Assembly (NCBI GenBank): GCA_017464565.1
Contig: JAFTZH010000035.1
Location: 62,001 to 126,000 of the forward strand
Reading direction: 5' to 3'
From: Clostridia bacterium
Lineage (GTDB): Bacteria > Bacillota > Clostridia > Oscillospirales > CAG-272
DNA: 64,000 nucleotides
Shown here: positions 5,591 to 62,573 of the stretch, piece by piece
Numbering within the stretch: the stretch's first letter is position 1
Layout: every line of letters begins with the position of its first letter
Translations under genes and position numbers: made by a program
Notes under the pieces: generated by a model
Databases searched by the model: none
Told to the model about the DNA's origin: nothing
What the model saw: the letters and a program-made list of their open reading frames with translations, nothing else

Positions 5591-5605
5591 TAAAGCTTAA
5601 TTTTT

Positions 5606-5800
5606 AAGGGGAGAAACTTTTTATAAAAAGTTTCTCCCCTTTTACCCCTCTTCAAAAATTTTTAAACGTTTTGATATTCTTGATTTTTTGTTTTGCTTCA
5701 ACCGAAAAGTAAATCAAAAAAATCAAACGATACCAAAGTTTTAAAGTTTTTGCGGAGGGGGGTGGGGGGAGGAGCTTTTTGCAAAAAGCTCCTCCCCCCA
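5606..5800. repeat. Hairpin-capped intergenic repeat, copy A
   Basis: A 195-bp near-palindrome between converging queT and the F420 ligase gene. The left end is a 17-bp perfect stem (5606-5622 / 5625-5641, tip AT). The right end is an 18-bp perfect stem (5763-5780 / 5783-5800, tip GC). Inside, CCCCTCTTCAAAAATTTTTAAAC on the left matches the reverse complement of the right segment ending GCGGAGGGG at 19 of 23 positions. No open frame crosses it. The right hairpin ends 14 bases from the stop of the minus-strand gene and the left begins 16 bases after the queT stop, so it can terminate both. Related copies: 29758-29950, 47685-47843, 60691-60884. Confidence 0.85.
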
Positions 5801-5813
5801 TAAAGCACATATC

Positions 5814-29220: not shown

Positions 29221-29272
29221 AATATATATAGGACATACTAATAAAAATCTATTTTCAAAAAGGAAAACGAAT

Positions 29273-29743
29273 ATGAACAATATAACCTTCAGAAAGGCAG
29301 AGCGCAGAGACTGCGCGCTTATTCTTCGATTTATAAAAGAGCTTGCCGAATACGAAAAGCTGGAGCAAGAGGTGGTAGCGACCGAGGATCTGCTTTCCGA
29401 TTGGCTGTTCGACAAGGAAAAGGCAGAGGTCATCTTTTGTATGTACGACGGACGAGAAGTCGGCTTTGCCCTTTTCTTTCACAATTTTTCCACCTTTCTC
29501 GGAAAGTGCGGAATATATCTTGAGGACCTGTACGTTGCTCCCGAATACCGCGGAAAAGGCTGCGGCAAAGCCCTTCTTCGCAAGCTTGCCGAAATAACGA
29601 GAGAACGCAGGTGCGGAAGACTTGATTGGTGCTGCCTCGATTGGAACCGTCCGAGCATTGATTTTTACCTCTCTCTCGGAGCCGTTCCTATGAACGGCTG
29701 GACGACTTACAGACTCTCTGGCGAAGCACTTGAAAAGTTATGA
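29273..29743 (+). CDS. GNAT acetyltransferase of the SAT/thialysine (diamine) type
   Basis: 156 residues. The sequence follows the spermidine/spermine- or thialysine-acetyltransferase branch of GNAT: NFSTFLGKCGIYLEDLYV, the acetyl-CoA loop PEYRGKGCGKALL (R/QxxGxG/A form), and CCLDWNRPSIDFYLSLGA. It likely acetylates a polyamine or small amine in the cytoplasm; a polyamine importer (potABCD) is in the same window. The ATG at 29273 has AAGGAAAAC upstream; the longer frame from 29192 starts in the promoter. Closed by repeat B. Confidence 0.85.
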   Translation: MNNITFRKAERRDCALILRFIKELAEYEKLEQEVVATEDLLSDWLFDKEKAEVIFCMYDGREVGFALFFHNFSTFLGKCGIYLEDLYVAPEYRGKGCGKALLRKLAEITRERRCGRLDWCCLDWNRPSIDFYLSLGAVPMNGWTTYRLSGEALEKL

Positions 29744-29757
29744 TTGATTGGTGCTTA

Positions 29758-29950
29758 AGGGGAGAAACTTTTTATAAAAAGTTTCTCCCCTAACCCCTCT
29801 TCAAAAATTTTTAAACGGTTTGGATTTAATTTTGATTTTTGCCTTATTTTCAACAGAGAGCAAGATAAAAATCAAAAAACATACCCAACACTTAAGATTT
29901 TTGCGGAGAGGGTATGGGGGAGGAGCTTTTTGCAAAAAGCTCCTCCCCCA
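29758..29950. repeat. Hairpin-capped intergenic repeat, copy B
   Basis: 193 bp between the converging GNAT and ACP genes. Left stem of 16 bp (29758-29773 / 29776-29791) nearly identical to copy A's left stem; right stem of 17 bp (29915-29931 / 29934-29950), close to copy A's right stem with one G fewer. The inner arms CCCCTCTTCAAAAATTTTTAAAC and AAGATTTTTGCGGAGAGGG again form an imperfect inverted repeat; the middle is diverged. Ends lie 14 and 11 bases from the flanking stop codons. Confidence 0.85.
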
Positions 29951-29961
29951 TTATACACACA

Positions 29962-30183
29962 TTAATTTCTCTTCTCCAAAAACTCGCAAACGTCGCCTAC
30001 GGTAACGAACTTTACGGGCTCGGTAAATCTGAAGCCGAACGCCGCCTCTATCTCCATAGCGAAAAGCATAATCGAAAGCGAGTCAAGTCCGAGGTCGTCT
30101 ATAAGCCTCGTTTCCTCGGTTACGCTGTCCATATCAATATCCTTATTTACCTTTGACAATATAGCCTTAAGCTCATCAAGCAT
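29962..30183 (-). CDS. Acyl carrier protein
   Basis: 73 residues. Four-helix ACP with the phosphopantetheine-attachment motif LGLDSLS (Ser35). It carries acyl groups as thioesters. It is the last gene of the tetR-fakA-plsX-fakB-GNAT operon, which suggests a dedicated carrier in fatty-acid recycling (PlsX interconverts acyl-ACP and acyl-phosphate) rather than the main AcpP of synthesis. RBS AAAGGAT. Confidence 0.93.
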   Translation of the reverse strand: MLDELKAILSKVNKDIDMDSVTEETRLIDDLGLDSLSIMLFAMEIEAAFGFRFTEPVKFVTVGDVCEFLEKRN

Positions 30184-30212
30184 AACTTTTATCCTTTCTT
30201 AATCAATTTTTA

Positions 30213-31346
30213 TCATTTATCTATCTTTTTTACGTAAGCGCGGCGGCGCTTGTGCTGTTCCGAATCGAAATATTTCCACTGCGCCATAACCTGCGTGTTG
30301 GTCTCGAGATTCAGATTGGTCTCGAAATAATCTATCTCCCCGCTCTCAAGATACTCGGTCATTTTTTGAAGCATAACCGCGTTGATTCCCGCCGATTGAT
30401 ATTCGGGCAGTACCGCAACGAGAGCAAGGTCAACGGTGCGCGGCTTCTTTACCGCGCGCAGAAGCTTCAAGAGCGCCGAGGGCGTCAAGCGTCCCCCGCT
30501 TTTTTGAAGCGCCTCGCCAATACCGGGAATACACAAGGCAAAGGAGACCACTCGCTCGTTTTCGTCGCAGATGATTATAAGATACTTCTTGTTTATCACG
30601 AGCATAAACTGCTCGACGAGCTGTTCCTTCATACTCTCGGTAAACGGAACGGTTCCGTAAAGCTTTCCGTAACAGAGGTCAAGGCACTCGAAAAAGCCGT
30701 CCTTATACCTTGCTATATATTCCTTTTTTGAGAGAGCGTCGGAATCAACCACGTGCAGCTTGCTGAGTTCAAGCGCTCGTTCCGCCACCCTCGCGAGCAT
30801 AATATTCTTCTCTTTCGGAGCGCGCAGACGAAATTCAAGCCAATCTATTTCCTTTTGATATCCGCACTTTTCTATAAGCTTGGCGTAATACTCGTAATTA
30901 TACTGCTCCTCGAAGGTGGAAAGCTTGTCAAAGCCCTCTATGAGCAGTCCCTCACGCTCGAGGTCGCTGTATCCGAGAGGACCGCAAACGGTATCAAGTC
31001 CTTTTTCGAGTCCCCACGCTTCAAGCGCATCAAAAAGTGCCCTTGCCGCCTCTTCGTCGTTTATCGAATCGAACCTTGAAAAACGGAGTCTCCTCTCGCC
31101 GTGAAGCTCGTTTGACTGCCTTTGTATTATTCCCTGAATACGACCAACCGTCCTTCCCTCTCGCCGCGCGAGAAAGAACGCCGATTCGCAGGTATCGGAA
31201 TATGCGTTTTTGTCGGTAAATATCTTCATCTCGTCGCTGTAAAGAGGCGGAACGAAATAAGGCGAGTCTCTATAAAGTCGAAGCGGAAAGTTCACGAATT
31301 CGCGTCTTTGTGCTCCGGTTTCAACCTTGATGACGGTTACGGACAT
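30213..31346 (-). CDS. GNAT-fold protein of unknown substrate
   Basis: 377 residues. The family is found mostly as an uncharacterised N-acetyltransferase: an N-terminal domain with FPLRLYRDSPYFVPPLYSDE and GFDKLSTFEEQYNYEYYAKLIEKCGYQKEIDWLEFR, and a C-terminal GNAT-like part with VALVAVLPEYQSAGINAVMLQKM and NLETNTQVMAQWKYFD. It may use acyl-ACP instead of acetyl-CoA, since it lies between the fatty-acid-binding DegV gene and an ACP gene; this is inference only. Its start overlaps the DegV end region (GGAGG inside that gene), so the two are coupled. Confidence 0.72.
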   Translation of the reverse strand: MSVTVIKVETGAQRREFVNFPLRLYRDSPYFVPPLYSDEMKIFTDKNAYSDTCESAFFLARREGRTVGRIQGIIQRQSNELHGERRLRFSRFDSINDEEAARALFDALEAWGLEKGLDTVCGPLGYSDLEREGLLIEGFDKLSTFEEQYNYEYYAKLIEKCGYQKEIDWLEFRLRAPKEKNIMLARVAERALELSKLHVVDSDALSKKEYIARYKDGFFECLDLCYGKLYGTVPFTESMKEQLVEQFMLVINKKYLIIICDENERVVSFALCIPGIGEALQKSGGRLTPSALLKLLRAVKKPRTVDLALVAVLPEYQSAGINAVMLQKMTEYLESGEIDYFETNLNLETNTQVMAQWKYFDSEQHKRRRAYVKKIDK

Positions 31347-31348
31347 TA

Positions 31349-32266
31349 TTATTCCTCCGTATTCTCATCGAGCGGCTCGTCGTCCCGACGCAGAAAAGCA
31401 AGACCGTAGCCCGCAAGCCACGGACCGTTATGACAACCGCTGACGGGAGACATTATCACGGACTCGTGATTGGTCTTTATTCCGTACCCTTTCTCTATCT
31501 CGACGAGCTGTTCGAGAAGAGACGGACCCGTGTAAACGTGCCAGAGCAGATAGTCCTCGGGCGAGCGGTCGCCTATAATTCCTTTAAGTATCTCGCAGGT
31601 CTGATTGAGCGCCTTTTTGGGCGTTCTGACGCTTTGCAGTGAGCACAGCTCGCCCTCACGCGTGAAATGAACGACGGGACATATACTGAGCATCTTGCCC
31701 ATAAGCGCCTTGCCGCCTTTGAGTCTGCCGTTATATATAAGATAATCCAGCTTTCCGTCAACTCCGATAAATTCCTGACGCTTCATCATCCAGCGTATCT
31801 CTTTTATTATCGTGTCGGTCGGGATTCCCTTTTCTATCATCTCCGCCGCCTTGATTGCAAGCAGTCCCTCTCCGAAGCAGGTTATCTTGGAATCTATCAC
31901 ATATATCTTCATTTTCTCCGCGAACTCCTCGGCAACGAGACGAATGAGATTATACGTACCGCCGAGATACGAGCTGAGCGCTATAACTATGATCTCTCGG
32001 TATCCCTCGTTATACGCCTTCTCAAAATGCCCGATTATAGTCTCTCGCGAGGGCATCGCCGTGGAAGGAAGATTGTTTTTGGGGTCCTCCAGAGTCTCAA
32101 GCTCCTTGTAAAACGCCACAGGGTCAAGGTCAAGACCTTCAAGATATTCCTTTCCATTGAAATTGACGTATATGCGGATTATGTCTATATCGTATTTTTT
32201 GTAACGCTCGGGAGCGTATTCTATACAGCCCGTCGAGGTACACATTACCTTTCTCTTTATATCCAT
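31349..32266 (-). CDS. DegV-family fatty-acid-binding protein (FakB-like)
   Basis: 305 residues. DegV fold: VMCTSTGCIEYAPERYKKYDIDIIRIYVNFNG at the start (split here by an insertion-free strand), SSYLGGTYNLIRL in the fatty-acid pocket loop and GRLKGGKALMGKMLSICPVV near the middle. In the Fak system FakB holds the fatty acid while FakA phosphorylates it. It sits next to plsX and fakA in one operon, strongly supporting the role. Residues after ~280 (a short acidic tail) are extra. Confidence 0.9.
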   Translation of the reverse strand: MDIKRKVMCTSTGCIEYAPERYKKYDIDIIRIYVNFNGKEYLEGLDLDPVAFYKELETLEDPKNNLPSTAMPSRETIIGHFEKAYNEGYREIIVIALSSYLGGTYNLIRLVAEEFAEKMKIYVIDSKITCFGEGLLAIKAAEMIEKGIPTDTIIKEIRWMMKRQEFIGVDGKLDYLIYNGRLKGGKALMGKMLSICPVVHFTREGELCSLQSVRTPKKALNQTCEILKGIIGDRSPEDYLLWHVYTGPSLLEQLVEIEKGYGIKTNHESVIMSPVSGCHNGPWLAGYGLAFLRRDDEPLDENTEE

Positions 32267-32268
32267 AG

Positions 32269-33255
32269 TTATCTGTTGTCCTTTCCGTAAAACAAATCTC
32301 TATTCTTTGCCATATTCAAAAGCATAGCCGAAGTATTTTTAATCGAATCGGCGTTTGCCGAGCCGCGCGCTTTGATGATAGGCTTGCCCGCACCGAGAAC
32401 TATTCCTCCGCCGAGCGAACTGAAATCGTATATACTCATAAGATACGACACGAGCTTCATAATTTCGGGATTGTTATTGGTCTTTGCGTACCTTACTATA
32501 TCGGTGATTATCCTTCTTGCTATTCCCTCGGAGTTTTTGAAAACCTGATTTCCCGCAAATCCGTCGGCAACGAGAACGTCGCAGTCGCCCGAAAGCGCGT
32601 TGCTGCCCTCTATATTTCCGACGAAATTAAGACCGCTCTCCTTTTTGAGAAGCGCGTGAGTCTCTTTTACGAGCTTGTTTCCCTTCGTCTCCTCCGCTCC
32701 GTTTGAGAGAAGTCCTACCCTCGGGTTGCCGAGACCGTAATATTCCTTCATAAAATCAGAGCCCATATGAGCGAATTCCACAAGCTGCGATGCCGTGCAG
32801 TCAATATTCGCGCCCGTATCGACGAGACAGGTGTATCCCCCTTTCTGCGCGGGAAGGATAGCCGCGAGCGCGGGTCTTTTAAGAACCTTCGCGGGAACGT
32901 AGCGAAGTGAGCCAGCAAGAAGCGCTCCCGTACTGCCGGCATTGATAAGTCCTATCATATCGTCTCTTTCGGCAAGCGCCGTAAGTGCCTTAACGAGCGA
33001 TGAGTCGGTCTTTCTGAAAATAGCCTCCATAGGATTGTCGTAATTGGTTATCACTTCGGAAGCCGGCACCACCTCTACTCTGTCCGCCTCGTGCTCTAGC
33101 TCGGAGAGCTTTTGGTTTATCACGCTCCCGTCTCCAAACAGAACGACGCCAAGCTCCTCGTTTTCTCCAAGCGCCTTTACGGCTCCTTCTATAAGCGTCT
33201 CGGGTCCGTTGTCGCTCCCCATTACGTCTATCGCTATCTTTAATAATTTACTCAT
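32269..33255 (-). CDS. plsX: Phosphate acyltransferase PlsX
   Basis: 328 residues. Interconverts acyl-ACP and acyl-phosphate. Signature pieces: IAIDVMGSDNGPE at residues 7-19, LGRKT-equivalent, GSTGALLAGS, PALAAILP and VADGFAGNQVFKNSEG. Feeds PlsY (start of the window). Its stop is 2 bp before the DegV ATG. RBS AAGGAGATATAG. Confidence 0.97.
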   Translation of the reverse strand: MSKLLKIAIDVMGSDNGPETLIEGAVKALGENEELGVVLFGDGSVINQKLSELEHEADRVEVVPASEVITNYDNPMEAIFRKTDSSLVKALTALAERDDMIGLINAGSTGALLAGSLRYVPAKVLKRPALAAILPAQKGGYTCLVDTGANIDCTASQLVEFAHMGSDFMKEYYGLGNPRVGLLSNGAEETKGNKLVKETHALLKKESGLNFVGNIEGSNALSGDCDVLVADGFAGNQVFKNSEGIARRIITDIVRYAKTNNNPEIMKLVSYLMSIYDFSSLGGGIVLGAGKPIIKARGSANADSIKNTSAMLLNMAKNRDLFYGKDNR

Positions 33256-33291
33256 TATATCTATATCTCCTTATCTCTAATTGCGTTCGGC

Positions 33292-34947
33292 TCATTCCAG
33301 CGCTATCAAATAATCGTATATCTGCTGTCCGCCGATATATACCTCAAGCGCGTGGTCGGGAAAGCGTTTCTCCAGAGTCTCGGTAAGCTCTGTTCTGTCG
33401 GATTCTGATACTCCCTCGCCCACGAAAAGCGTTATCAGCTCGCGTCCGTCAATATCCTCAACCGCCGAAAGCGTCTCGCATACCGCGTCTGCCGCGCACT
33501 GCTTTGAGGTAACGAGCTTACCTCCGAGAATACCCACGTACTCGCCTTTTCTTACCTCTACTCCGCCGCATACAGAATCTCTCACAGCCGCGGTTATCTC
33601 TCCCGATACCACCGAGTCTTTGGCGGCGTTAAGGTCTGCCACCTGCTCGTCAAGGTCGGAGACCGACGCGTTGAATACCGACAGAGCCGCATAGCCCTCG
33701 GGAATGGTTTCGGTTGGAATGACGGTAACCTTTCCGTCCTTCCAAAGCTCTGCCGCCTGCGCTGCGGTAAGCAGAATGTTTTTGTTGTTGGGCAGTACGA
33801 GGATATCGTCCGCGTTAAGCTCCTCGAAAGCGGACAGAAACTGCTCGGCAGACGGATTTCCCGTCTGACCGCCGCTTACTACCGCATCCGCGCCGAGAGT
33901 TTTAAAGAGGGCGATCATTCCCTCTCCCGTAGCTACGGTAACGACTCCGTATCTCTTGCGGGGCTTTTTCTTTTTTTTCGATTCCGAAAGCTTTTCCGAG
34001 TGCTGAAGCGACATATTTTCTATTTTGACGTTGAGAAACTCGCCGTATCTCTGGCAAAGCGTAAGCACACCGCTCGGAACCGCCGTATGAGCGTGAACCT
34101 TTAGTATATCTCCGTCCTTCAGAGCGACGATAGATTCACACCCCATTCTCTCAAGCTCGGCTTTAAAGTCCTTCTCGTCAAACGCGGACGGCTCTCCCTT
34201 CGCGCGCTGAAGCCTAACGAGACATTCGGTACAGTATCCGTATTCGAGAACCGACTCGCTCGTAAACAAATCGTAATCTATTTTCGCCGCGGTATCGTTC
34301 ATATTCTCCGCTTCAAACACCACCTCGGCACCGTCACGCAAAGATTCGTACATTCCTTTCACTATACAGAGATATCCCGCTCCTCCGCTGTCTACGACGT
34401 CAGCCTCGGTAAGCACGGGAAGTATCTCCTTCGTCCGTTTCAGAGAGCGTTCCGCCTCCTCTGCGTTAAAGCACAAAAGCTCCTCCAGCGTTCCGTTTTC
34501 TCCGATTTTCTTCTTTGCGTACTCGGCGCTCTCTCTGAACACTGTAAGTATCGTTCCCTCCACGGGATTCAGAACCGCCGCGTAAGAGCGCTCCACGCCC
34601 GCCATATAAGCGTCGGCAAGCTCACTTGGCGTAGCCGTCTCTTTGTCGGAGAGGGCTCCGCACATACCCGCGAAAAACTGCGAGAGTATGACTCCCGAAT
34701 TTCCCCGCGCACCGAGAAGCGAGCCCTTGGCAAATTCGCTTGCCACGTCTCCGAGCGTCGCGCCGTCGTCATTCGATATCTTGGCAATACCGCTCTCTAT
34801 CGTTCTGCTCATATTCGTTCCCGTATCTCCGTCGGGGACGGGAAAAACGTTCAGATCGTTTATAGCCTTTACGTTAGTTCTTATTCCTTTCGCTCCGCCT
34901 ATAAGTATTCGCCTGAGTGTACTTCCGTCAAGTTGTCTCGTTTCCAT
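33292..34947 (-). CDS. fakA: Fatty acid kinase catalytic subunit FakA (DAK2/DhaL domain)
   Basis: 551 residues. The DhaL/DAK2 kinase domain is N-terminal with VFPVPDGDTGTNMS (metal/ATP site at residues 35-47) and SLLGARGNSGVILSQ. A middle domain follows with VDSGGAGYLCIVKGMYE and CTECLVRL; the C-terminal DegV-like half begins YGVVTVATGEGMIALFKTLGADAVVSGGQTGNPS. It phosphorylates fatty acids presented by FakB. I chose the Met at 34947 because GGAG precedes it; the Met at 34962 overlaps that site. 14-30 bp after tetR. Confidence 0.93.
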   Translation of the reverse strand: METRQLDGSTLRRILIGGAKGIRTNVKAINDLNVFPVPDGDTGTNMSRTIESGIAKISNDDGATLGDVASEFAKGSLLGARGNSGVILSQFFAGMCGALSDKETATPSELADAYMAGVERSYAAVLNPVEGTILTVFRESAEYAKKKIGENGTLEELLCFNAEEAERSLKRTKEILPVLTEADVVDSGGAGYLCIVKGMYESLRDGAEVVFEAENMNDTAAKIDYDLFTSESVLEYGYCTECLVRLQRAKGEPSAFDEKDFKAELERMGCESIVALKDGDILKVHAHTAVPSGVLTLCQRYGEFLNVKIENMSLQHSEKLSESKKKKKPRKRYGVVTVATGEGMIALFKTLGADAVVSGGQTGNPSAEQFLSAFEELNADDILVLPNNKNILLTAAQAAELWKDGKVTVIPTETIPEGYAALSVFNASVSDLDEQVADLNAAKDSVVSGEITAAVRDSVCGGVEVRKGEYVGILGGKLVTSKQCAADAVCETLSAVEDIDGRELITLFVGEGVSESDRTELTETLEKRFPDHALEVYIGGQQIYDYLIALE

Positions 34948-34976
34948 AAAATCTCCGTTCAAGCAGTTTACAATTT

Positions 34977-35519
34977 TTATTTCAGCGCGGGTCGGCTTCG
35001 GTCTACGATGGACTCTATCATATTCATCGTATACTCGCTGACTTTGTCCGCGTCGTATTTTTTATCGGTAAGAACGTAATCTTTCACTACGCGTACAAAT
35101 CCTCCGATTATAAAGGAAAGCTTTACTCCGTCCTCAAGACTGCTTACCATATCGTCGTAAAATCCGTGAAGCCTTTCTTCAAGCTTAGCGCAAAGTACGT
35201 CGTGCTTTCCGCGGAATATTATCTTCAAATCCGAGGACTCGCGGTCAAGCGCGCCGAGAAGCCCCGCTATATAGGCTTTGGGGTCCTCAAATATCTTGTC
35301 CTTTGCCGAAAATCCCGACACTACCCTTTCAACAGCGTAATCGTCTATTTCGTTGGACAGCTCGGCAGAATCGGTATAGTGGTTATAGAAGGTGGTTTTG
35401 TTTATCATAGCCACCTCGCAGATATCCTTAACCTTTATCTTATCGGGCATAAGCTTTTCACGCAGCTTTAGAAACGCCGATTTTATCTGATTTCGAGTTT
35501 TTACCATTCGCAAATCCAT
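34977..35519 (-). CDS. TetR-family regulator (DhaS-like)
   Basis: 180 residues. N-terminal helix-turn-helix of TetR type with KVKDICEVAMINKTTFYNHY (residues 29-48), and a C-terminal ligand domain with the TetR_C region (SEYTMNMIESIVD). It heads the fakA operon, so probably regulates it, perhaps responding to fatty acid or acyl-CoA level; homologues near dhaL-type kinases are often called DhaS. Start at 35519 has GGAGG five bases upstream. No terminator lies between it and fakA. Confidence 0.85.
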   Translation of the reverse strand: MDLRMVKTRNQIKSAFLKLREKLMPDKIKVKDICEVAMINKTTFYNHYTDSAELSNEIDDYAVERVVSGFSAKDKIFEDPKAYIAGLLGALDRESSDLKIIFRGKHDVLCAKLEERLHGFYDDMVSSLEDGVKLSFIIGGFVRVVKDYVLTDKKYDADKVSEYTMNMIESIVDRSRPALK

Positions 35520-35640
35520 AACTACCTCCAAAACTAATTTTATGAACGATATCCAAAAAAAATAATCAACTTTAGTTGCATAAATGTATTATAGTCGATT
35601 TTTGTCGTATTGTCAAGGATAGTTTTAAAAAAAGTAAAAA

Positions 35641-35680
35641 AACCGCTTTTACTATCAGTAAACCGATAGTAAAAGCGGTT
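35641..35680 (-). terminator. Terminator of pckG
   Basis: A 16-bp perfect stem, AACCGCTTTTACTATC with GATAGTAAAAGCGGTT, eight-base loop, T-rich tract on the minus-strand 3' side. Confidence 0.88.
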
Positions 35681-47684: not shown

Positions 47685-47843
47685 CGGCGGGAGGAGCAAG
47701 CCCCTCCCCTGCCGAGTATAACGAAAACCTAAAACAATCTTCCCATAGAAAGCAAGACAAAAAATTAAAACTATACCCAGCGTTTAAAGTTTTTTGAGGT
47801 GGGGGTTTGGGGGAGGGACTTTTTGCAAAAAGTCCCTCCCCCA
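47685..47843. repeat. Hairpin-capped intergenic repeat, copy C (diverged left end)
   Basis: 159 bp between converging pnuC and the GDPD gene. The right stem of 17 bp (47808-47824 / 47827-47843, tip GC) corresponds to those of copies A and B with swapped paired bases (GGGAC/GTCCC for GGAGC/GCTCC). The inner segment AAAGCAAGACAAAAA followed by GCGTTTAAAGTTTTTTGAGG is shared with copy D. The left stem is unrelated in sequence (CGGCGGGAGG with CCTCCC..GCCG, 47685-47714) but also GC-rich. Confidence 0.75.
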
Positions 47844-47860
47844 TTATTATTTATCATATA

Positions 47861-60690: not shown

Positions 60691-60884
60691 TGGGTGAGAA
60701 GCTTGTTTGCGGGAGATGAAGACCAATCGTGTTCTTCATCTCTCGCAAGCCCATTCCATACCGAGTATGGTGGAATCCCAAATAAGCTTTCGTAGGAAGC
60801 AAGACAAAAATTCAAAATTAATCCCAAGTTTTAAAGTTTTTGAAGAGGGGTTAGGGGAGAAACTTTTGCAAAAGTTTCTCCCCT
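60691..60884. repeat. Hairpin-capped intergenic repeat, copy D
   Basis: 194 bp between converging AEC and phosphohexomutase genes. The right stem of 15 bp (60853-60867 / 60870-60884, tip GC) has the GGGGAGAAAC sequence that copies A and B carry at their left end. The inner right arm TTTAAAGTTTTTGAAGAGGGGTTAGGGG is the reverse complement of copy B's left side. The left end is another strong hairpin, TTGCGGGAGATGAAGA with TCTTCATCTCTCGCAA (one G-T), followed by a short inverted repeat ATTCCA/TGGAAT. Confidence 0.78.
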
Positions 60885-60902
60885 TTTTTATATACCATTT
60901 AT

Positions 60903-62573
60903 TCAATTTCTTTCAAACGCTTTACGCATAAGCTCGAGCTTCTTTTCGGCTTCGGCGCGGTTTTCCGCAACTACGCTGAAATAGAATTTACATTTTGGCT
61001 CGGTACCGCTCGGACGAACCGCTACCCAGCTTCCATCGCTCAAGATAAATTTGAGCACGTTGGATTTCGGGAAGCCCGCGTTCATCATTTTTTCGGTTTC
61101 ATAGTCCTCAATCTCGACGACGCTTGCGGTTCCTACCGCAGCGGGCGGGTCGTTTCTGAGCGAGGTTAGAAGCGATGCTATTTTCTCGGTTCCGTCTATA
61201 CCCTTGAAAGCGAAATTATCAAGAGCGTCAAGGAAATAGCCGTACTCATCGTAAAGAGAATAAAGCACGTCAAGAAGCGTCCTACCCTGCTCCATATAAT
61301 AAGCCGCCGCCTCACAGAGCATAAGAGAAGCTTGAACCGCGTCCTTGTCTCTTACAAAATCGCCTATAAGACAACCATAGCTCTCCTCATATCCGAAAAC
61401 GAAGGTGTCGCCCTTCGCATTATGAGTATATATCTTATCGCCTATAAACTTAAAGCCCGTCAAGGTCTTTTCAACCGCCACGCCGTAGGAGTCGCATATC
61501 CTGTCTCCAAGGTCGGATGTAACTATGGTATTGAACATTATACCGTTTTCGGCAAGCGTTCCTTTTTCCTTTTTCTGCGAAAGTATATATTTCAGCAGAA
61601 CTGCCGCCGACTGATTTCCCGTCATACGAAGGTATTCGCCGTTCTGCTTCACCGCGACTCCGAGTCTGTCGCAATCGGGGTCGGTGGTGATAACTATATC
61701 GGCATCGCGGCGTTTTGCGTACTCAAGAGCGAGCGTATACGCTCCGTCGGTTTCGGGATTGGGGTTGTCGGTCTTGCTGAATTCGGTATCGGGAACGCAC
61801 TGCTCCTCAACGGGTATAACGTTATATCCGAGACGCGAGAGCACCGTTCTTACGGGAACGTTACCCGTACCGTGCTGAGGAGAATACACTACCTTCAAGC
61901 CGTCCTTTTTTACGTCGTTTATCGAGACCGACATTACGGCTGAATAATATTTTTCGTCCATATCCGAGTCTATGACCTCGATAAGACCGTCCGCCTCCTC
62001 AAATGAAAGCGACTTCACCGCGAGAGGATCGGATACCTTGTCAATATAGCCTACCACGATATCGTTTACGTCAGGGACGAGCTGACAGCCCTGCGCGTCG
62101 TATATTTTATATCCGTTGTATTCGGGAGGATTGTGCGAAGCCGTTATCATAACTCCGCCAAAAGCGCCAAGCTCCCTTACCGCGAAGGAAAGCTCGGGGG
62201 TGGGACGGAGCGAATCGAATACGTAAGCCTTTATACCGTTAGCCGCAAGCACTCCCGCAGTCTCCTTGCAGAATTCAACGCTGAAGCGTCTGTTGTCGTG
62301 AGCGATAGCCACGCCCGCCGCACAAGCATCCTTGCCAGCCGCCTTTATATAGTCGGCAAAGCCTTGAGTAACCTTTCTCACCATATATTTATTTATTCTG
62401 TTGGTTCCCATTCCGAGAACGCCGCGAAGCCCGCCCGTACCAAACTCTACCTCACGGATAAAGCGCTCCTTTATTTCCGCGTCGTTATTTCCGATAGCCT
62501 GAAGCTCTCTTTTTTCTTCCTCGCTGATATACGGACTTTCGAGCCAATAACGGTATACGTCATTATAATTCAT
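60903..62573 (-). CDS. Phosphohexomutase (phosphoglucomutase / phosphomannomutase)
   Basis: 556 residues. Alpha-D-phosphohexomutase family, PgcA-like. Phosphoserine loop TASHNP (Ser146), FGTGGLRGVLG near residue 44, the metal-binding TDPDCDRLG, the substrate loop FGYEESYGCLIG, and phosphate-binding RPSGTEPKCKFY. Converts glucose-1-P and glucose-6-P, possibly also mannose. The Met at 62573 has GAGAGGTG upstream; 36 further residues on the frame are discarded. Monocistronic; closed by the right stem of repeat D. Confidence 0.94.
   Translation of the reverse strand: MNYNDVYRYWLESPYISEEEKRELQAIGNNDAEIKERFIREVEFGTGGLRGVLGMGTNRINKYMVRKVTQGFADYIKAAGKDACAAGVAIAHDNRRFSVEFCKETAGVLAANGIKAYVFDSLRPTPELSFAVRELGAFGGVMITASHNPPEYNGYKIYDAQGCQLVPDVNDIVVGYIDKVSDPLAVKSLSFEEADGLIEVIDSDMDEKYYSAVMSVSINDVKKDGLKVVYSPQHGTGNVPVRTVLSRLGYNVIPVEEQCVPDTEFSKTDNPNPETDGAYTLALEYAKRRDADIVITTDPDCDRLGVAVKQNGEYLRMTGNQSAAVLLKYILSQKKEKGTLAENGIMFNTIVTSDLGDRICDSYGVAVEKTLTGFKFIGDKIYTHNAKGDTFVFGYEESYGCLIGDFVRDKDAVQASLMLCEAAAYYMEQGRTLLDVLYSLYDEYGYFLDALDNFAFKGIDGTEKIASLLTSLRNDPPAAVGTASVVEIEDYETEKMMNAGFPKSNVLKFILSDGSWVAVRPSGTEPKCKFYFSVVAENRAEAEKKLELMRKAFERN

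Follow-up and report, generated by a model that had tools for sequence, protein, structure and literature searches.

The operon considered here joins genes for fatty acid activation and for an acyl carrier protein (ACP) to a gene for an acyltransferase of the GNAT fold. It lies in a 64,000-nucleotide stretch of DNA (hereafter the window, meaning the whole stretch analysed) from a Clostridia bacterium of the CAG-272 lineage (GenBank assembly GCA_017464565.1, contig JAFTZH010000035.1, positions 62,001 to 126,000). Open reading frames (ORFs) together with Pfam and NCBIfam matches resolve positions 29962-35519 of the window into a run of six genes, tetR-fakA-plsX-fakB-GNAT-acp. A first-pass annotation had described these as tightly spaced on one strand, and this is borne out: all six are on the minus strand and the gaps, which span 2-36 bases, measure 29, 36, 2, 2 and 29 bases in operon order. 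The genes are as follows.

34977-35519, minus strand: TetR-type regulator, first gene of the operon (ORF with a weak family match)
33292-34947, minus strand: FakA-like fatty acid kinase, catalytic subunit (PF02734, PF21645, PF13684; TIGR03599, 553 bits)
32269-33255, minus strand: PlsX acyl-ACP:phosphate acyltransferase, the genome's second copy (TIGR00182, 256.9 bits, cut-off 243.4)
31349-32266, minus strand: FakB/DegV fatty-acid-binding subunit, the genome's second copy (PF02645; TIGR00762, 201 bits)
30213-31346, minus strand: predicted tandem-GNAT acyltransferase of the YghO/bacterial ceramide synthase group, 377 residues (homology and AlphaFold2 model)
29962-30183, minus strand: dedicated ACP, 73 residues, with the phosphopantetheine Ser in DSL (PF00550, 35.5 bits)

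The last five genes, hereafter the module, include four whose products resemble the parts of a known pathway. FakA has the three-domain architecture with the kinase and Cys-His-His motifs of the family; its motifs LNVFPVPDGDTGTNM, GARGNSGV, VVDSGG, GYCTE and KVHAHT line up with the solved structure of a FakA relative (7w7h) and with solved FakA N-domains, and fit the residues given for Staphylococcus aureus FakA (Asn32, Asp38, Asp40, Thr41, Asn82, Asp185 and the Cys-His-His triad) in the available portion of PMC9136124. Its score on the FakA/VfrB equivalog NF038248 (460.6) is below the cut-off of 975. The fakA ORF as called begins with TTG at 34962, and an ATG preceded by GGAG lies at 34947. 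PlsX exceeds the curated cut-off of its equivalog model. FakB scores 125.9 on the FakB1 model NF038249, below the cut-off of 350, and has the Arg of FakB/DegV proteins in a GR motif conserved in all 73 of the 73 module FakBs, equated by motif and not by structure with Arg173 of the portion of PMC9136124 that was available. In 22 of 75 aligned sequences, that of the window among them, Gly replaces the Ser of the SGT motif, and the pocket residues in the alignment of module FakBs are variable, with no clear signal. The ACP is a PP-binding protein that scores 38.3 on TIGR00517 (below the cut-off of 70.45), and its phosphopantetheine Ser, in a DS motif, is kept in 52 of 52 module ACPs. According to the accessible part of PMC12594616, Enterococcus faecalis FakA, a FakB, PlsX and the auxiliary ACP AcpB produce acyl-AcpB in vitro, PlsX being freely reversible and AcpB its preferred acceptor; by analogy with this reconstitution, four of the five enzymes of the operon match a known route to acyl-ACP. 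The first-pass annotation had placed the additional ACP outside the known Fak/PlsX pathway, a view that does not hold given what the excerpts of PMC6509188 and PMC12594616 report of AcpB.

The fifth enzyme is the 377-residue protein. Its AlphaFold2 model (pLDDT 87.7, pTM 0.85) has tandem GNATs as its best structural neighbours (7q3a, Z 21.6, root-mean-square deviation 3.7 over 304; 5kf2, Z 21.1), N-myristoyltransferases ranking lower with Z about 14, and by these matches it is predicted to be a tandem GNAT itself. A search of PDB sequences with the single GNAT sequence retrieved no relative, and a profile gave weak matches of GNAT type (best E 0.063). Full-length homology is found in sequence comparisons with Escherichia coli YghO (hhalign E 1e-38, 29% identity over 364 columns; tblastn against three E. 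coli records E 2e-36 to 7e-36, 99% coverage) and with a Sphingomonas protein (E 2e-34, 362 columns) encoded about 6 kb from a pair of genes for an ACP and a serine palmitoyltransferase (SPT), the latter recognized by NCBIfam with 833 bits against a cut-off of 670. Among 11 proteins (that of the window, its relatives and others of the YghO group) 21 columns are invariant, including G68-R69, G122-P123, G138-F139, G231 and E342. Homology along the full length to YghO, or to a homologue from an SPT cluster, was taken as a mark of the bacterial ceramide synthase (bCerS/YghO) group of N-acyltransferases, and on this sequence evidence the operon GNAT is assigned to that group. The available text of PMC9386255 gives yghO as the homologue of Caulobacter CC_1154, which is required for dihydroceramide. 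The operon GNAT is thus like the CC_1154/YghO ceramide acyltransferases in its full-length homology, with 29% of the residues identical when profiles are aligned with YghO, and unlike them in being divergent and in having no detected SPT partner; the comparison was made with YghO and the Sphingomonas relative, not with CC_1154 itself. In Pseudomonas veronii a YghO protein is encoded near an oxononanoate-synthase-type gene and near small and ligase-sized ORFs, which may, from their sizes and one annotation only, be an ACP and a ligase.

The fold also admits a different role, in which the GNAT would be a protein acetyltransferase, or another acetyl-CoA-dependent enzyme, that controls the Fak enzymes. 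Judged by their titles, many of the tandem GNATs retrieved from the PDB are acetyltransferases, and the C-terminal half of the protein has a PF00583 match with a Q-x-x-G loop. Against these stand the full-length homology to the YghO/bCerS group (a single-domain GNAT from the window, used as control, aligns with the operon GNAT over 85 columns only), the adjacent ACP and the co-occurrence of the family with SPT described below, and we regard this role as highly improbable. The three Pfam matches that the GNAT has at E 0.01 or better do not include the Acetyltransf_5 domain (PF13444), that of N-acyl amino acid synthases, no profile comparison having been made.

The operon is a second, paralogous set beside the housekeeping genes. 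The genome of the window (G000; 1.67 Mb, 97.3% complete) encodes PlsX, FakA and DegV in two copies each, along with four PP-binding proteins. Its housekeeping plsX lies on C49 between trmFO and rnc, among dprA-, topA-, trmFO-, rnc- and smc-like ORFs, named from their sequences. C17 has a run of genes for fatty acid synthesis (ACP, FabK-like, FabD, FabG, FabF, biotin carrier and FabZ), and a fakA-fakB pair, a DltA/DltC-like pair and a lone ACP lie on C45, C33 and C31, respectively, the names on these four being likewise read from the sequence, with no family search. The operon ACP differs from both the C17 and the C31 ACP. An ordinary single Fak/PlsX set was considered and is ruled out by the housekeeping set elsewhere in G000. 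Of 59 relatives, 14 have a full-length GNAT, and 10 of these show two or more PlsX matches, versus 1 of the 45 others (p 1.6e-7; G006, with a 28% partial GNAT match, is not scored as positive, and the counts of three in G018 and G019 include contig-end fragments). The lone GNAT-less genome with at least two PlsX, G020, has a module-type PlsX and FakA adjacent to each other near a contig end. A single PlsX is seen in four GNAT genomes: G012, which is without the module, and G016, G029 and G030, in which only the module copy was found, through either assembly gaps or takeover by that copy. In a PlsX tree module and housekeeping copies are mostly separate, with 4 label changes against 26 in shuffles.

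Conservation of the module was examined with a profile of 14 GNATs. It matched at least 579 relatives in named genomes, and the 80 best of these were used. Together with the GNATs of close relatives and of an even sample of the class they made 154 GNATs, or 146 distinct ones after near-identical sequences were merged, a set biased toward close relatives. FakA, FakB, PlsX and ACP are all same-strand neighbours of 39 of the 146, and at least two of these partners adjoin 69. Two or three partners accompany 30 GNATs (16 of them near contig ends) and one partner accompanies 10 (4 too close to a contig end to judge); 45 have full flanks and no partner, and 22 show no partner but lie too close to a contig end to judge. 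The 39 complete clusters comprise 21 in the order FakA-FakB-GNAT-PlsX-ACP, 16 in the window's order FakA-PlsX-FakB-GNAT-ACP (window included) and 2 others; one cluster (L025) has two FakB genes around a GNAT-PlsX-ACP core. A chance cluster was considered and is excluded because the module is conserved with all four partners in these 39 of 146 distinct GNATs. The association of GNAT and ACP with fakA and plsX thus recurs in many Clostridia in two main orders, and the gene order is not unique to this genome.

The even sample places this association in the wider family. A GNAT match at E <= 0.001 occurs in 80 of its 391 genomes, and 52 loci in 51 genomes (L157-L208, at least 280 bits) have at least two partners in 7 cases and one partner in 1. 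Class genomes with a match of at least 500 bits (n = 11, the window's included) have the GNAT linked to the module in 8, beside FakB only in 1 and unlinked in 2. Linkage to the module requires 7 changes on the GNAT tree versus 49 in shuffles. Since only 7 of 52 even-sample loci are linked, the GNAT family is mostly stand-alone and the module characterizes the wider clade to which the window belongs; that the GNAT occurs mostly without fak or ACP genes is accordingly true of the family as a whole and false for this clade. Clustering of the genes around the module, in which an acceptor-making enzyme was sought, gave no further family whose position in the operon is constant. The next commonest neighbours are ABC-type ATPases (16 loci, at scattered distances and on both strands), and 4 loci have a small helix-turn-helix-like ORF about 2.8 kb upstream of their GNAT. 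Stand-alone GNATs have lineage-specific neighbours, among which a search for the motif of a diverged ACP returned a single match, not ACP-like.

These data bear on another explanation, in which a second FakAB-PlsX-ACP set serves ordinary handling of exogenous fatty acids, for phospholipid and for signalling to the regulator, with the GNAT as an accessory or passenger. FakA, FakB, PlsX and a second ACP are Enterococcus parts, acpB adjoining plsX there (PMC6509188, available in part), and a regulator with a conserved palindrome heads the window's operon. A housekeeping set already exists, however, and the GNAT is internal, in the fakB-acp or the fakB-plsX interval, in 37 of the 39 complete clusters; a passenger is unlikely to persist in both orders. 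We therefore find this explanation improbable.

The sphingolipid connection of the GNAT was followed through SPT. No SPT was detected in G000 with either a Sphingomonas SPT or a Clostridial SPT-like protein as query, a gap in the 97.3% complete genome being possible, and the best match of an E. coli Kbl query was at E 6e-4. An SPT in the same genome, another mark of the bCerS group, is thus not found for the window, and complete sphingolipid synthesis in this genome was discarded on that ground. Three order-level relatives have an SPT-like protein whose best NCBIfam match is SerpalmtaseCFB (484-550 bits, under the cut-off of 640); the E. coli Kbl control has 348 bits on this model and 747 on its own. 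Co-occurrence in the class sample was counted with the 64 genomes, of 80 matching, whose GNAT reaches 100 bits and with 51 SPT-like genomes (at least 380 bits or, in one case, a fragment of 313 bits with 63% identity), other matches of the SPT queries, of about 320 bits or less, being treated as Kbl/BioF-like. In the stand-alone band of GNATs (280-500 bits) an SPT-like protein occurs in 30 of 42 genomes versus 21 of the 349 others (p 9e-22, the genomes not being independent). Counted by family (GNAT of at least 280 bits), SPT is present in 7 of 14 families versus 9 of the rest, with p 0.001 for 101 families and 0.005 for 82, the possible range. A further 16 class genomes have SPT although no GNAT in them reaches 100 bits.

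Clostridial genomes thus carry SPT-like genes (for instance L284, 2958-4941, and L285, 4432-5610), and of 23 such loci 13 have a gene for a KdsR-like (3-ketodihydrosphingosine-reductase-like) enzyme no more than 3 kb away, in two cases on the opposite strand; the 23 loci were chosen by hand, mostly from GNAT genomes (20 regions plus L284-L286). The one reductase checked has KdsR as its best NCBIfam match, at 221 bits against a cut-off of 400. The pattern of SPT-like, KdsR-like and GNAT genes suggests, as far as sequences go, sphingolipid synthesis in Clostridia; a search of the open literature, judged by titles and abstracts, gave no description of it, subscription papers and bioRxiv preprints being mostly outside that search. 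Two further SPT-like genes have neighbours of note. In G234, whose GNAT has no adjoining partner, a DegV/FakB-like gene is directly upstream (L344), and in G033, which has no GNAT match, the gene follows one for 578 residues that resembles an AMP-forming acyl ligase (L286, 467-3420).

SPT status was determined for 111 GNATs, using the Sphingomonas query for relatives and the Clostridial query for the rest, which differ in sensitivity, and covering 50 chosen loci of the best 80 from named genomes. SPT was found with 36 of 60 stand-alone GNATs, 3 of 5 FakA-FakB-GNAT loci, 5 of 13 FakA-FakB-GNAT-PlsX-ACP loci and 1 of 16 loci in the window's order.

The reading that we lean towards is that of a regulated, duplicate module that makes acyl-ACP and feeds one acyltransferase, which would N-acylate an amine. 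FakB would bind a fatty acid and FakA phosphorylate it; the operon PlsX, running toward the thioester, would shift the acyl group from the phosphate onto the operon ACP, and the tandem GNAT would pass it from there to an amine, forming an amide. Transfer of an acyl group from ACP to an amine is thus the likeliest type of reaction. The data show gene content, paralogy, conservation of the module, homology and no detected SPT, whereas the direction of PlsX, the acyl-ACP donor, the N-acylation and the acceptor are inferred. As the GNAT is placed in the bCerS/YghO group, whose defining activity is N-acylation of 3-ketosphinganine or sphinganine, the acceptor in its SPT-bearing relatives is probably a long-chain base; with no SPT detected in the window's organism, the acceptor there would be another amine or an externally acquired base. 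An output fed by acyl-ACP in addition to phospholipid is the best reading because GNAT and ACP travel with fakA, fakB and plsX, the set is paralogous and the GNAT falls in this group. The first-pass annotation had proposed such a second output, and this is partly supported by the conserved module, the paralogous set and the YghO/bCerS-group GNAT, with a putative donor and acceptor.

Several observations weigh against an acyl-ACP-fed N-acyltransferase. CC_1154 is termed a predicted acyl-CoA N-acyltransferase in the available portion of PMC9386255, a name that tells against ACP as the donor, barring a difference in the enzyme of the window, and the sphingolipid papers, in their accessible parts, mention acyl-ACP for SPT only, which leaves the operon's own ACP as the one ground for an acyl-ACP donor. 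The enzyme does not need the module, since the GNAT family is often stand-alone: 60 of the 111 GNATs with SPT status have no same-strand partner within 6 kb (some are near contig ends), and plsX and/or acp are missing nearby in others (5 FakA-FakB-GNAT and 4 FakA-FakB-GNAT-PlsX loci). In the module-type band (at least 500 bits) GNAT and SPT are unassociated (2 of 11 versus 49 of 380, p 0.43), and both SPT-bearing genomes there are unlinked. Searches for SPT came up empty for 15 of the 16 loci in the window's order (window included) and for 8 of the 13 in the other main order; as SPT is mostly not found at module loci, the ceramide analogy fixes the reaction type only. Linkage and SPT are also unassociated on the tree, a comparison with 3 well-supported independent pairs and no power. 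As for the duplicate set, G016, G029 and G030 show the module-type PlsX alone, G038 has neither of its PlsX beside the GNAT, and a single clade of module PlsX, although not in the best tree, is not rejected (p 0.156). G038 also has an extra PlsX-FakA pair (C22:161151-163708), separate from its GNAT-FakA-FakB cluster.

An externally acquired base would mean ceramide salvage, in which the GNAT acylates a sphingoid base from diet or host (sphinganine or similar) with a fatty acid activated by FakAB, and ceramide is formed without SPT. The placement of the GNAT in the bCerS group is in keeping with this, as are the co-occurrence of the Clostridial family with SPT-like genes, often near KdsR-like genes, the presence of SPT in some genomes with the complete module (L042, L026, L065, L076, L080, L096) and the ruminant-gut origin, by record titles, of many named relatives; Bacteroides, moreover, converted a sphinganine analogue to ceramides (PMC7910519, from the available part). 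No gene for uptake of sphingoid bases recurs with the module, however, acceptor specificity can drift, and in the same study the label-negative fraction included Firmicutes and Bifidobacterium formed no such ceramides. We consider salvage unlikely. A broader proposal covers both acceptors: in gut Clostridia without SPT a private FakAB-PlsX-ACP would feed a ceramide-synthase-type GNAT, yielding either a new class of N-acyl membrane or signalling lipids or ceramide from external sphingoid bases. We put this forward tentatively, as a possibility.

No description of the tetR-fakA-plsX-fakB-GNAT-acp cluster was found in searches of the open-access literature, and two known systems, besides the CC_1154/YghO acyltransferases, come near it. 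One is the FakAB-PlsX-AcpB set of E. faecalis, where, in the available parts of PMC6509188 and PMC12594616, fatty acid kinase, PlsX and an auxiliary ACP, whose gene adjoins plsX, make acyl-ACP from free fatty acid; the window differs in that its parts, a second FakA and FakB included, share one operon, a housekeeping set is retained and a GNAT of YghO/bCerS type is present. The other is the rhodobacterial AasR-AcpR-SPT-CerR-CerS system, likewise with a dedicated acyl-ACP supply and a homologous GNAT N-acyltransferase. There, as the accessible text of PMC9386255 and PMC11324152 has it, the acyl-ACP synthetase AasR and the ACP feed SPT, acyl-AcpR being described as the SPT substrate; in the window FakAB and PlsX stand in the place of AasR, the operon has no SPT or CerR and no SPT is detected in the genome. 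The novelty lies in the coupling of a private FakAB-PlsX-ACP set to a ceramide-synthase-type GNAT, and in the occurrence of this combination where no SPT was found. Two systems studied apart, the fatty acid kinase and bacterial ceramide-type N-acylation, meet in a compact set of five genes that is found in many uncultured gut Clostridia, many of them ruminant by record titles, and that hints at an unrecognized amide-linked lipid in these organisms.

The upstream region of the operon contains the following signals.

35567-35578, minus strand: candidate operator, palindrome CAACTAAAGTTG, 9 bases beyond the -10 box
35588-35616, minus strand: sigma-70 consensus promoter TTGACA-17-TATAAT (12/12 matches; a consensus match only)
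35641-35680, minus strand: terminator-like hairpin between the phosphoenolpyruvate carboxykinase gene and the operon (18-pair stem, then a T run)

The regulator starts with ATG at 35519, with GGAGG ahead. Its name is the weakest of the operon labels: the sole Pfam match, TetR_C_8, has 17.9 bits (cut-off 26.1), and the N-terminus is DhaS-like at 26.2 bits against a cut-off of 129. Homologues are the first operon gene in L016-L019, L041 and L108. The motif CAAC(N4)GTTG lies near the regulator start in all 7 loci above 235 bits (the window, L016, L017, L018, L019, L041 and L108), in each of which the regulator gene is on the same strand as the GNAT, and in none of the 10 remaining regulator matches; in L017 and L041 it is at or just within the ORF start used. 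As L108 has the other gene order, the site is not confined to the closest relatives. In the AcpB-type system of Enterococcus, acyl-ACP that PlsX makes from acyl-phosphate serves as a repressor ligand; the regulator and the conserved palindrome of the window would be candidates for a similar arrangement.

Downstream, a separate single-domain GNAT gene (29264-29743, plus strand) is convergent with the operon and weakly resembles the C-terminal half of the operon GNAT only. Directly after the ACP gene is an imperfectly palindromic intergenic repeat of about 220 bases (29741-29960) with two hairpins 158 bases apart. Its hairpins are absent from L016-L019 and occur in L123, L124 and L125 of the same genome, and with further copies at 5591-5810, 47747-47847 and 60788-60903 the window has two near-full and two partial ones; from its sequence the repeat looks like an element of the miniature inverted-repeat transposable element (MITE) type.

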